A DNA stretch of 36,249 nt from Puniceicoccaceae bacterium MED-G32 (GTDB taxonomy: Bacteria > Verrucomicrobiota > Verrucomicrobiia > Opitutales > Coraliomargaritaceae), in assembly GCA_002457235.1 (NCBI GenBank), contig NTJV01000003.1:1-36249 (forward strand), written 5' to 3'. Made by a program: the position numbers and the translations under genes. A model generated the notes under the pieces. The model was not told the origin of the DNA. It made no database searches and saw only the letters and a program-made list of their open reading frames with translations. This document shows, one piece after another, positions 3,143-9,776 of the stretch (its first letter is position 1; every line of letters begins with the position of its first letter).

Positions 3143-4867
3143 ATGCAAGATTCAAACAAAACACTTTATACTAATAAAACAAACAATCATTCACCTCAAT
3201 TATCAGAATTAAAAGAGGACACTCAATCAAACAAACTGATTGATACAAAGGCTTTGGGCAAGGAGGCAGGACATCGATCCAAAAAGCTCCCATTTATCCA
3301 AAAGGTACAAAAAAAACTGAGCAAGGATACTAAACCTTTTTCCGAATTGCTCTTTAATTCTGGGGCCATTGAGAAACGTATGGTCTCATTACGAGATGGA
3401 GTCCTTGATAAATTCAACATTGAGCGCAAGGGTGACCGCCACGAAGTTGGTGCCATTTTTCGAGGTAAAATCCAAAATTTAGAACCTGGGCTCAAAGCCG
3501 CTTTCGTTGACATTGGACAAGAGAAAAACGCTTTTCTCCATTATTGGGACATTTTGCCTACTAGTAACGACAACTCCATAGAAGTTGTTAAAAACAACAA
3601 ATCAAAAAAACAACTACGTCAGGAAAAAATTTCTCTAAAAAATATTCCTGACCTTTATCCAATAGGCAGTGAAATATTAGTTCAAATAACTAAGGGGCAA
3701 ATTGGCAATAAGGGCCCGAGAACGACCACCAACATTTCCCTACCAGGGAGATTTCTTGTCCTCACACCATTCGGGGGAACTTTGGGAATATCTCGTAAGA
3801 TTGAAGATAAAGGTGAGCGTACCCGATTGAAGAAAATTCTCAGAAATATGACCCTTCCAGAAGGCATGGGATTAATCATACGAACTGCTGGTGAAGGTAA
3901 AAAGTTGCGCTATTTTGTACGTGATTTAGAAATTCTAAAAAAGCGTTGGCAAGGAATCAGTGATCGAATTAAACGCTCTAAATTACCCTCCTGTGTTTAC
4001 GTTGAACCTGACTTGATTGGAAGAACCGTCCGTGATTTCTTAACTGAAGATGTGGATCGTATCGTGGTGGACAACAAAGAAGCCCATGAATTGATTTTAA
4101 GTGAAGTCGATAAAATATCTCCTCGTTCTAAGTCTAAAGTATTCCACTACAAAGACGAAAAACCGATTTTCGATCAGTACAAGGTTGAGGAACAATTAAA
4201 TCAAATCTATCAAAGAAATGTACCCTTACCCTCTGGAGGAGAGATTGTCATCGAAGAAACAGAGGCCTTAATCTCAATCGATGTTAATACAGGCTCTCAT
4301 CGAAATAGTGAAAAAGATGGAAAAAATTTCATTTTGGCGGTGAACCTAGAAGCAGCGAAAGAAATCGCTAGACAAATTCGTCTCAGAAATATTGGCGGTT
4401 TGATCATTGTAGACTTCATAGATATGAAGGCGAAAAAAGATCGAGATTCGGTATTTAGAAAAATGAAAAGAGAAGTGGAAAATGATCGTGCAAAAACACA
4501 TTTGCTCCCTATCTCAAATTTTGGAATCATGCAAATGACACGACAAAGGCACTCTGAAAGCCATGCGAGTAATTTATTTTCAGGATGCCCGTATTGCGAG
4601 AGCCGAGGAAAGATAAAATCAATTCGTACAGTCACTATTGATCTACAAAGACGCGTACTGCAAAACCTAAAAGAAATCCGTAGCCGAGAAGGCATTGAAG
4701 AGGAAATTCACCTCAAAGTGACATTGCATCCAAGCTGCTTAAGTCAGGTAAAAGAGGATGCCCAAGTGCTATTGGATATTGAACGAAATTATGGCGCTCG
4801 CTTATCTTTTGCAACTAACCCTGCATTCCATATCGAGAGTTTCGAAATTATCCAAATCAAAGATTAA
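3143..4867 (+). CDS. rng: Ribonuclease G/E family endoribonuclease
   Basis: The 574-residue protein is an RNase E/G catalytic core that cleaves single-stranded AU-rich RNA in rRNA maturation and mRNA decay. An S1-type domain starts near residue 100 ([20 protein letters not shown]), followed by a 5'-sensor/RNase H-like region. The Mg2+-binding aspartates are in [11 protein letters not shown] (D380) and IIVDFIDMK (D424). The zinc-link motif [13 protein letters not shown] has C482 and C485. It lacks the long C-terminal scaffold of E. coli RNase E, so it is RNase G-like. The first 70 residues are a low-complexity, Lys/Ser/Asn-rich extension before the usual family start. The ATG at 3143 is used; no Shine-Dalgarno precedes it. 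The 3' end overlaps possible starts of namZ. Confidence 0.95.
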
Positions 4868-6137
4868 TTCCTATATTAAAATACTAAGTATTAATTCTCT
4901 TAAATCAATTCTTCTGCTATCGCTAATAGTTCCTTGGGTCGCTCTCAATGGAACAGAGTCAAAAGTGTACTTAGGGATTGATGTATTGGAAGAAAATCGC
5001 TTTTCCGTTCTCAAAGGAAAACGTGTGGGTATTTTGACGCATCCTGCAGGAGTAAATCGTAGAGGTATTTCAACGATCGATGTTTTATGCCGCAGTCGAT
5101 ACGTAACAGTCGTAGCTTTATATGGACCCGAGCACGGTATTTATGGAAATGAAAAAGCCAATCAGCCGATCGACAATCGAATAGACAAAAAAACAAATTT
5201 ACCGGTCTATTCACTCTATGGCCGATACCGAAAACCTCAGCCAGAAATGTTGGCTAATATCGATACTTTAGTCATTGATTTGCAGGATATCGGGGTTCGT
5301 TCTTATACCTATGTTAGTTGTATGCTTTATGCGATGGAGGCTTGCTTTGAAAACAATATAGAAGTCGTCATCTTGGATCGCCCCAACCCTCTAGGAGGTA
5401 AAAAAATTGATGGCCCCTTACTAGATAGAGAATGGAAAAGCTATGTTGGTGCCTTTCCTGTCCCTTATTTACATGGATTGACTATAGGTGAACTAGCAAT
5501 TTTGGCTAAATCCATGCCAAATTGGATGAATATTGAAAGTAAAACTCGCAAACAAGGCAGGCTCAAAGTAATCCCTATGCGCGGTTGGAAACGCTCAATG
5601 CTTTGGCCGGAAACAGGTTTGAAATGGATAGCAACTTCTCCCTATATTCCCAGTTTTTCCTCTGTTCTAGGATATGCAATGACGGGACTTGGGGCACAAG
5701 AAGGAGGCTTTTCTCATGGCATAGGGACACCCTATCCTTTTCGTTTGTTGACTCATAAAAATTTATCCTCTGATGCACTGATTAAGCGTTTACAAGCTCT
5801 AGATATTAGCGGCCTAGATTATAAAATAATCCGAACAAGAAATACCAAAGGGGATCCTGTCAGTGGAGTCTATGTAGGCATAAATAATTGGAGAAGATTA
5901 AAGCCTACAGAATTAAGTTTTTATATGATGTTAATGGTTATTGATCTTGAACGCCCTAACCCCTTTCAAACCACAACTCGCTCAGATTTATTTAACAAAC
6001 ATGTTGGAAGCACTCAATGGTGGTCAGAATTAATCCAAAATAAAGGAAAACCAAGAATTCAATACTTCATGAAACGATGGAAGCAAGAGCAAGAAAGCTA
6101 TAAGAAAAAAATTGAAAATTACTTAATCTACAACTAA
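4791..6137 (+). CDS. namZ: Exported DUF1343 protein, NamZ-like exo-beta-N-acetylmuramidase
   Basis: DUF1343 proteins include NamZ, an exo-lyase-independent muramidase that removes terminal MurNAc from peptidoglycan fragments. Family features are the opening YLGIDVLEE...[17 protein letters not shown], the conserved [45 protein letters not shown] and [13 protein letters not shown] hydrophobic export signal ([18 protein letters not shown]) lies just before the mature domain. The start is unclear: ATG at 4791 (448 residues) or 4758 would overlap rng and leave a 38- to 49-residue N-region. No ATG, GTG or TTG occurs in frame between the rng stop (4867) and the signal peptide. An ATT at 4875 would give an ordinary 26-residue signal peptide. 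Cell-wall recycling fits the nearby rodA. Confidence 0.88.
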
Positions 6138-6256: not shown

Positions 6257-7705
6257 ATGAATACTAGTCGCCAAATTCCAATTTTATTACGCCTCGTCCT
6301 GATAATTTCCTTGTCCACTATTTGCGCGATTCAATTATCCGCTGAGACTGATCCCGAAGCGTATGATTTCGAAGATTATATGGGCGTATGGCAAACTGAG
6401 ATAAACAATGAAGCCATTTATCTATTAATTAAAAAGCATTCTGTTGCACGTTATTTTTACAAAGACCGTATTGATAATAGCGTATATAAAGGCACCTGGA
6501 AACTTGCTGAAGATAATACCTTGTTGGTCTCAAGCTTAGATTTTGAAAACTTACGCTTTCAATTAAAGCGTGACTCTGAAGAAGGTAAAAATACTCACGA
6601 TGAGACGGGCATTACAGCTTTAACAAAAGTATCCGAAGGGTTACTTGGTGAATGGGCACGACCACCCGATTATGAAGCACCTAAAAATAAATATATGCCA
6701 TCAACCTACTTTGGACTATGGGAAACGCAGGATCAAAAAAACTCACAATTAATTAAAGTTTTGGATAATCGAACGGTTATCAGTTTCAATAAAGAGGAAT
6801 CAACTTCAAAACTTCGAAATATACTTCAAGGAGAATGGTATAAACACGGTAAACAATTACACATTGCATGGGAAGATGGTACCTATAGCATCATTGATAA
6901 TCGCAATGAAAACCAGGTGAAGTTGTTTAATTTCGATTCAGGCGAAGCAATTATTGATGACGCATCTGATTATACTCTGATAACTCAAAGCCAGGATGAA
7001 TCAGAAGAATCCAATTGGTCAACAAATCAACTTGCTCTAACTCAGCAACAAAACATATCGCTTTCTCAATTTAACTACAAATCATTGCTTAAATTTTATC
7101 GAGGTGAATGGATAACTCTCGACGAGACGCACCCTGATGCAATTGAGATTATGAAATTCAGCCGTTTTGGAGGAGTCGATTTAGCATCTGATAAAAAAAC
7201 CAATGGCAATTGGTATCTTTCCGGTAAGGGCTGTTTGATTAATTTAGAAGACGGTATTCGGATGCGATTAAAACATATAGGCAGCGCCTTTCTAATATTT
7301 GTTTACGAGGCAAACCGTCCGTTAGATGCATATCCTAATAAAATTTTAAAAGCCGCACCTTTACATCCCCAAAAGCTCGATATGCTAAATTCAGAGGTTT
7401 ATTTTACATTAAAATTACTCGATCAAGTCGAACAGCTTCACCCAAAAGAAAAAAATGCAATTCCCTTGATTTCAAATTGGTCGAATCGGGATACGATCAA
7501 TCCATCACCTAGTAGCCCATGGTGGTGGCCGATCTGGAGTGATAATCCGAAAACTAAAGAAGCCGATACTTTTTCTGCAAATAATCTATCTCCATCGTTG
7601 ACAAATGATGCAGATTCAATCGCTTCTAATAAAGAATCTAAACAAAAAAATTTGCCAGATCCTGTAGACCAACCAAATAAATCAAAATGGATATGGCCTT
7701 TTTAA
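6257..7705 (+). CDS. Exported protein with three tandem GxW modules and a Trp-rich tail; function unknown
   Basis: This 482-residue protein has a signal peptide (hydrophobic 8-26, probable cleavage after LSA at 29). I do not recognise its family. Three modules of about 65-80 residues each contain two GxW turns: YMGVW (41-45) with YKGTW (77-81), YFGLW (151-155) with LQGEW (190-194), and YRGEW (281-285) with TNGNW (315-319). Modules 2 and 3 also share a WEDG or LEDG turn. The pattern recalls lipocalin-like beta-barrels, but this is only a resemblance. A low-complexity Ser/Asn/Asp/Lys linker joins two Trp clusters, PWWWPIW (421-427) and KWIWPF (477-482), and the protein ends in Phe. It follows namZ by 119 bases and precedes glyA by 50. 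A periplasmic or outer-membrane location is inferred. Confidence 0.75.
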   Translation: MNTSRQIPILLRLVLIISLSTICAIQLSAETDPEAYDFEDYMGVWQTEINNEAIYLLIKKHSVARYFYKDRIDNSVYKGTWKLAEDNTLLVSSLDFENLRFQLKRDSEEGKNTHDETGITALTKVSEGLLGEWARPPDYEAPKNKYMPSTYFGLWETQDQKNSQLIKVLDNRTVISFNKEESTSKLRNILQGEWYKHGKQLHIAWEDGTYSIIDNRNENQVKLFNFDSGEAIIDDASDYTLITQSQDESEESNWSTNQLALTQQQNISLSQFNYKSLLKFYRGEWITLDETHPDAIEIMKFSRFGGVDLASDKKTNGNWYLSGKGCLINLEDGIRMRLKHIGSAFLIFVYEANRPLDAYPNKILKAAPLHPQKLDMLNSEVYFTLKLLDQVEQLHPKEKNAIPLISNWSNRDTINPSPSSPWWWPIWSDNPKTKEADTFSANNLSPSLTNDADSIASNKESKQKNLPDPVDQPNKSKWIWPF

Positions 7706-7755: not shown

Positions 7756-9012
7756 ATGAATCCACTCAATGACACACCATTGGAGCAATTAGATCCTGAA
7801 ATCGCACAATTAATCGAGAAAGAGAAACAAAGGCAACAATCTCATATTGAATTAATTGCCTCTGAAAACTTTACCTACCCTGCCATTATGGAATCACAGG
7901 GAAGCATACTCACTAACAAATATGCTGAAGGTTACCCGAACAAGCGTTACTACGGAGGTTGTGAATTCGTTGATTCAATTGAGGAAATTGCAATTGAGAG
8001 AGCCAAATCCCTCTTCGGTGCCGATCATGCAAACGTGCAACCACATGCTGGAAGCCAAGCTAATGCAGCAGTATACCTATCCGTTTTGAAACCTGGTGAT
8101 AAGATTTTAACCATGAATTTGTCAGATGGAGGCCACCTAACACATGGACACCCAATGAATTTCAGTGGAATCTACCATGAAGTTGTTCATTACGGTGTGA
8201 GCAGTGACAAGGGCTTAATTGATTACGATGCAATTGAAGCAAGTGCAAAGAAAGAGCTACCAAAGATGATTACCGTAGGTGCATCTGCGTACTCAAGAGT
8301 GATTGATTTCGAGCGAATGGGTGCGATTGCTAAATCTGTTGGAGCTTATCTCTTAGCCGATATTGCTCACATTGCTGGACTCGTAGCTGCAGGGGTTCAT
8401 CCATCTCCCGTGCCGCATGCAGATTTTGTAACCACCACCACACACAAAACACTTCGTGGACCAAGAGGCGGTCTGATTTTATGCAAGGAAGAGCATGCAA
8501 AAAAAATAGATACAGCGGTTTTCCCTGGAACGCAAGGCGGACCTTTGATGCATGTAATTGCAGCAAAAGCAACCTGTTTCCAAGAAGCACAAACCGATCA
8601 ATTTAAAGCCTACCAAAGACAAGTCGCAAAGAATGCGAATGCCTTGGCGAACGCCCTTATTGAAAAAGGTCATACAGTTGTCAGTGGCGGTACTGACAAT
8701 CATTTATTCATGATTGATCTAAGAGTGAAATATCCAGATTTAACAGGTAAGATAGCTCAAAATGCACTTGATAAAGCAAATATTACAGCAAATAAAAATA
8801 CTGTCCCAGGTGAAACTCGAAGCCCTTTTCAAACAAGTGGAATTCGAATTGGGACCCCTGCCGTGACCAGCCGAGGTATGGTGGAAGACGATATGCTCGA
8901 AATCGCCAAGGCTATCAATTTAGTATTAGATAATATTGAAGATGAGGATAAAATTGCTGAAGCAAAGGCCATTGCTATTAATTTATGTGCGAAATATCCA
9001 CTGCCTTACTAG
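7756..9012 (+). CDS. glyA: Serine hydroxymethyltransferase
   Basis: GlyA interconverts serine and glycine with tetrahydrofolate in the cytosol and is the main source of one-carbon units. The 418-residue length is normal. Visible are [10 protein letters not shown] (30-39), [20 protein letters not shown] (54-73), the SDGGHLTHG loop (123-131), [17 protein letters not shown] (202-218) and the PLP-lysine motif [14 protein letters not shown] with K231. The C-terminal [16 protein letters not shown] is also standard. The ATG at 7756 gives the usual family N-terminus. A GAGGA about 17 bases upstream is too far away to act as a normal ribosome-binding site. The gap upstream is only 50 bases, so a glycine riboswitch does not fit there. 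Confidence 0.98.
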
Positions 9013-9065: not shown

Positions 9066-9776
9066 ATGAAGAAACAAATTAACAAACTTTCAGGATTTAC
9101 CCTCATTGAGTTGCTGACTGTTGTGGCAATCATTGGTGTTCTTGCCAGTATTTTGATACCGGTTGTTGGAAATGTACAACAAAGAGCACAACAACTGAAG
9201 TCTCAATCTAACCTCAGAGCGATTGGGCAAACTTACATTAATTACTCATCAGGTGGAGCTAGAGTGAAAACCATCACTCAAGCAAAACTAGAAAGAACCC
9301 AAAGTGGAGATAATATCTACGGAGTTATAGAATTATTGGCTAAGCATGGCGGTTTAACCGATGCATCTATTTGGTTTATTGACGCAGATCCAGCTATATC
9401 ACAATACGATGGAATCATGCCAGATATTATAGGTTTTAAAAATGATAATAATATTTTTGAATTATCCGATGAATGGGTAAATGATTTGCCAGTAGCGTAT
9501 GACTTTGCCATTGGACTTAATCCTTCAAGCGCAAATGCAACAAAAACCCCACTTGCATGGACTAGAGGTTTAAATTCATCTGGTACATGGCCAAAATCAA
9601 GTCCTTGGGGCGGAGGCGGACATATCTTATTTTATGATGGCCACGTAGAATTCTTCAATGAAATTGGCGAAGATGACGGCTTTCTTGTAAACCCTAAAAC
9701 GGGTAAACCAACCAGCAATATTTATGAAATCATTGATGAAGCCAATATTCGTAAAGCACCTGAATTCAACTTATAA
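9066..9776 (+). CDS. Type II secretion/type IV pilin-like pseudopilin with GHILFYDGHVEF tail
   Basis: The 236-residue protein has a class III prepilin signal: a short basic leader, then G10 and FTLIELLTVVAIIGVLASIL, with the conserved Glu five residues after the cleavage site. Prepilin peptidase would cut after G10 and methylate F11. The hydrophobic helix is followed by AQQLKSQSNLRAIG, as in the large Verrucomicrobiota/Planctomycetota/Lentisphaerota pseudopilin family. The C-terminal part has GGGGHILFYDGHVEFFNE, the variant H-x-x-x-x-x-D-G tail common in those phyla. These genomes usually carry many solitary copies, and no pilus assembly genes are nearby. It lies 53 bases after glyA and is followed at once by a strong terminator. 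Its role is unknown. Confidence 0.9.
   Translation: MKKQINKLSGFTLIELLTVVAIIGVLASILIPVVGNVQQRAQQLKSQSNLRAIGQTYINYSSGGARVKTITQAKLERTQSGDNIYGVIELLAKHGGLTDASIWFIDADPAISQYDGIMPDIIGFKNDNNIFELSDEWVNDLPVAYDFAIGLNPSSANATKTPLAWTRGLNSSGTWPKSSPWGGGGHILFYDGHVEFFNEIGEDDGFLVNPKTGKPTSNIYEIIDEANIRKAPEFNL

Follow-up and report, generated by a model that had tools for sequence, protein, structure and literature searches.

A previously uncatalogued exported protein of marine Verrucomicrobiota with three predicted barrel modules and a tryptophan-motif tail

Small lipocalin- and avidin-like β-barrels are mostly single domains, and many are exported or envelope proteins. Their first strand bears GxW, the classic signature of that strand in lipocalin-like barrels. 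In the C-terminal domain of Abn2 and in Pfam GH43_C (C-terminal lipocalin-like domain), a small β-barrel is attached to glycoside hydrolases. The protein described here likewise contains GxW turns; it is an exported protein of marine Verrucomicrobiota, encoded by a single-copy gene and not catalogued before. Its gene lies in a window of 36,249 nucleotides (the whole stretch of DNA analysed) from Puniceicoccaceae bacterium MED-G32. A literature search for its architecture found nothing relevant; PMC10076258, in which a lipocalin-like protein of Prevotella is mentioned among glycan binders from phage display, is too remote to use. The gene, its parts and its immediate neighbors are as follows.

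4758..6137, + strand: NamZ (exo-β-N-acetylmuramidase), upstream neighbor
6257..7705, + strand: whole gene of the exported triple-barrel protein; ATG start, open reading frame of 482 aa
6257..6343, + strand: probable Sec signal peptide, residues 1-29, ending IQLSA-E, as read from the sequence
6383..6628, + strand: module 1, residues 43-124; 7 predicted strands, GxW at 43 and 79
6641..6655, + strand: LLGEW, predicted linker helix, residues 129-133; conserved LGxWA
6713..6988, + strand: module 2, residues 153-244; 8 predicted strands, GxW at 153 and 192
7103..7360, + strand: module 3, residues 283-368; 8 predicted strands, GxW at 283 and 317
7385..7705, + strand: variable, low-confidence tail, residues 377-482, plus the stop codon
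7517..7537, + strand: tail motif PWWWPIW, residues 421-427
7688..7702, + strand: C-terminal motif W-I-W-P-F-COOH, residues 478-482
7756..9012, + strand: GlyA (serine hydroxymethyltransferase), 50 bases downstream of the gene

The reading frame at 6257-7705, coding for 482 residues, is present as first annotated, and it occurs once in its own genome (about 71% complete). A scan for a promoter and a terminator at the gene found nothing above shuffled sequences. The product had been called exported, and its hydrophobic N-terminus, which ends in an SA-E or A-Q junction common to the aligned orthologues, supports a probable signal peptide. Residues 3-27 of this segment form a helix in the AlphaFold model. 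No lipobox cysteine is seen in the sequence at the cleavage site, where the only cysteine nearby sits in STIC, and an alignment of 36 sequences has no conserved cysteine near this point in the orthologues. Judged by the lipobox, as found in Omp19 and YedD, the protein appears not to be a bacterial lipoprotein.

GxW occurs at residues 43, 79, 131, 153, 192, 283, and 317 of the 482-residue protein. A mean of 0.63 occurrences would be expected, and none of 20,000 residue shuffles reaches the observed seven. The first-pass annotation had placed six of these turns exactly, and the seventh (131-133) falls inside its LLGEW. From the three pairs, spaced by 36, 39, and 34 residues, it had proposed three tandem copies of a β-rich domain of about 70 residues. 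Module profiles cut from the alignment of 36 sequences match one another with probabilities of 98.2% (modules 1 and 2), 97.4% (1 and 3), and 97.7% (2 and 3) over 74-86 columns, while column-permuted controls reach 13.5% at most. The order of strands is also alike in the three modules of the whole-protein AlphaFold model (mean pLDDT 76). Given these probabilities against the controls and the matching strand order, modules 1-3 are homologous tandem repeats. The three copies are thus borne out, but their limits are not, since the strands run longer (43-124, 153-244, and 283-368). Module 3 is the best conserved of the three. LLGEW, once thought a possible partial copy, is instead a predicted helix right after the last strand of module 1. 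Its G131 is present in all alignment rows with a residue there and its W133 in 89%, and in the model it is a conserved linker helix.

When module 2 is folded alone by structure prediction, the result has eight strands (pLDDT 81.7, pTM 0.74). VIA-align relates this model, with Z of about 8-10, to many small 8-stranded barrels, including a designed barrel, Treponema TP0435 and Tp0751, Bacteroides lipocalin-like proteins, avidins, U-Omp19 (Z 8.5), and YedD (Z 8.2). Foldseek finds no significant match for the module (best E 0.017), potempin E and LptDE-bound YedD being among its non-significant ones, and the module 2 profile has no significant match to PDB sequences. The absence of a fold from these lists was not counted as evidence. 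Full-length Foldseek matches to a DNA clamp and to BamB were rejected, with TM-scores of about 0.1 and rmsd near 20. By fold, the predicted model of module 2 is a calycin/avidin-like 8-stranded barrel. The first-pass annotation had proposed predicting the three modules separately; this gave the barrel for module 2, and modules 1 and 3 were seen in the full-length model only, where their likeness to module 2 would follow from strand order and from the homology of the profiles.

For the window protein, every Pfam and NCBIfam model stays below its cut-off, and none is convincing among the relatives scanned. The first-pass annotation knew no family with this layout, and at the level of these models this holds, but the fold has precedent in the calycin/avidin-type barrels that module 2 resembles. 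DUF6705 (PF20448; 18.8 bits against a gathering cut-off of 24.4) and TIGR03066 (Gem_osc_para_1; 14.3 bits against 93.25) both stay below threshold; their resemblance to the protein is weak and local, near its signal peptide and first module. The lipocalin family profile has no match at cut-off for the window protein and no significant one among the relatives scanned; by sequence profile, then, the protein does not appear to be a member of the lipocalin family proper.

A search of Verrucomicrobiota had been suggested; among the genomes sampled, matches are confined to the order Opitutales. Profile matches occur in 50 of 333 genomes of the order, and all 15 matching genomes in a phylum-wide sample of 388 fall within it. 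Of 92 relatives, 46 have matches. Relatives that carry a name include MAGs of Opitutales and of Puniceicoccaceae as well as Coraliomargarita sp. SDUM461004, and L089 holds a Coraliomargarita orthologue. The window's own family has matches in 36 of 44 genomes, and the 8 non-matching genomes are 64-91% complete, so that absence there is unproven. One copy (genome G019, L043/L092) looks broken by frameshifts; since the adjoining glyA is split in the same way, in a long-contig assembly, sequencing error is the most likely cause rather than gene decay. The gene is kept even in genomes of 1.2-1.4 Mb and in most genomes of this Coraliomargarita-related family, which suggests that it probably serves some basic envelope task.

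The tail combines strict and loose conservation. PWWWPIW (421-427) and KWIWPF (477-482), with its terminal Phe, are as originally described, and the proposed check of their conservation found the motifs kept and the linkers variable. All 27 aligned sequences of the window's family have PWWWPxW, and 25 of them close with W-x-WPF-COOH. The motif columns are 93-100% conserved, except for two freely varying positions; the linker columns average 40%. Much of 413-480 has pLDDT below 50 in the AlphaFold model, and the tail is probably mostly disordered. Most genera of the family have a further internal WxWPF, and members of genera other than the window's carry an extra internal WxWPF or LWPF. A second family has a tail of about 40 residues with VWPF (L035) or, with one extra Asn, FWPFN (L037) at its end, and families other than these two lack the motif. 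With WPF at the end of the shorter second-family tail and further internal WxWPF in the window's family, the motif seems, from sequence comparison, to have multiplied. Among 29 genomes, a DNA word for W-x-WPF followed by a TAA or TAG stop occurs at the target gene and otherwise once, in G014, as a coincidence that ends no listed reading frame; a second tail-like match, on contig 118 of G016, was rejected as a chance frame overlapping a transporter-like reading frame.

A constant C-terminus after a variable linker suggests a docking peptide. One could go further and see in the tail a new, order-specific envelope docking code, in which W-x-W-P-F-COOH and the internal Trp-Pro motifs, multiplied within one family, would fix a binding protein of three barrels to one conserved receptor; this extension is speculative and somewhat unlikely. 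In any case, strictly conserved Trp motifs in a variable tail offer a direct handle for a partner search.

The gene order in the window is rodA, RNase E/G, NamZ, target, glyA. Adjacency of the target to glyA is held throughout the window's family. A pseudopilin-like gene (FTLIELLTVVAIIGVLASILIP) lies downstream of glyA at 9066-9776 and keeps this place in several genera. On the other side, NamZ directly precedes the target only in the window's genus (congeners including L126). In the other genera of the family, surE lies close upstream on the same strand wherever enough upstream DNA is available, except at L090, where 1.9 kb of upstream sequence contains no surE match. The pair of surE and target is also found in families f3, f4, f5, f18, and f21, if not in every member, and so spans six families of the order; in these families surE often has pnp in front of it.

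The module also occurs in other architectures within the order.

L117 4424-7735: modules plus C-terminal GH16, orthologous surE locus (family f5)
L045 2200-5163, - strand: modules plus C-terminal GH16, orthologous surE locus (family f5)
L118 2741-4096, - strand: two modules plus GH16 (family f10)
L119 3780-4538; L120 3390-4142, - strand; L121 3133-3879: two-module proteins (family f20)

In the two f5 products, of about 1000-1100 residues, three modules are followed by a long charged stretch that looks like a coiled coil (seen in L117), then by one more module and the GH16 domain. The L117 stretch between modules and GH16 is long, highly repetitive, and rich in Ala, Glu, and Arg. By eye, the neighbors of the L118 gene resemble LPS-transport genes (an ABC ATPase and an LptA-like protein). 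The f20 proteins stand alone, with about 230 residues; their genes adjoin an oxidoreductase-like gene and, in two cases, rpsB- and tsf-like genes, again by eye. Searching back with the two-module type finds the triple-barrel family again and, in the phylum sample, nothing outside Opitutales. Through its GH16 fusions the module is loosely connected with polysaccharide handling, which is a central trait of these bacteria.

The reading that accounts best for these findings, with a probability of roughly one half, is that of an exported protein of the cell envelope, held there by its tail, with a binding or scaffold role and no catalysis. Gly and Trp are the best conserved residues in the alignment, and no catalytic set of polar residues is kept, which makes binding more likely than catalysis. 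In this mechanism the hydrophobic N-terminal signal would export the protein, the three calycin/avidin-type barrels would bind envelope material (glycan, lipid, or protein), and the Trp motifs, acting as short linear motifs, would dock it to one fixed envelope partner or membrane surface, where the free carboxylate and terminal Phe might be read together. Inheritance at a stable locus, seen in the surE-target pair of six families and the target-glyA pair across the window's family, counts for such a protein. Against an envelope role, the conserved neighbors surE, glyA, and pnp are housekeeping genes that give no pointer to the envelope. The GH16-linked modules belong to diverged members whose role may be different. 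Moreover, only two families have the tail motifs, which thus cannot be needed for the core function everywhere.

What the barrels bind is where the alternatives differ. Among specific roles, one related to polysaccharides is the most likely, given the GH16 fusions seen in two other families of the order; each barrel may bind extracellular or cell-wall polysaccharide, the window protein being a stand-alone relative of the modules in L045, L117, and L118. The weak matches of the full-length model to the Abn2 C-terminal domain and of one member to GH43_C point the same way. However, the strongest conservation falls on structural Gly and Trp, and the gene sits beside surE and glyA with no visible polysaccharide-utilization cluster; carbohydrate binding of this kind is possible yet doubtful. 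It is quite unlikely that the protein is instead a periplasmic accessory or inhibitor, like the Omp19/potempin-type protease inhibitors or YedD on LptDE: these proteins do appear among the neighbors of module 2, but at 8-19% identity and with non-significant Foldseek E-values, and many unrelated barrels score alike, so that the fold does not separate functions. A partnership with NamZ in peptidoglycan turnover, suggested by the position of NamZ in the window and its congeners, is highly improbable. Other genera have surE in that place, and two window congeners carry surE about 9 kb from the target on the same contig; the adjacency is best seen as a local rearrangement that says little on function, and a functional link to NamZ is not supported.

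Set beside the described systems, the envelope binding protein proposed here shares, in the predicted model of module 2, the fold of the small lipocalin/avidin-like barrels (Z 8.2-9.9 over 83-101 residues) at 6-14% identity. The Abn2 C-terminal domain is a weaker structural match to the full-length model (Z 5.5-5.9), and GH43_C, at E 0.09 in one family member, is not significant; both are attached to enzymes, whereas the window protein has no enzyme domain, though GH16 fusions exist among its relatives. Atu4866 (2jmb), a single domain of 79 residues, is the size of one module and is listed among the sequence matches (E 0.8, module 3) as well as the fold matches, without significance in either. 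Unlike the known small barrels, which are mostly single, the window protein carries three in one chain, followed by a Trp-motif tail.
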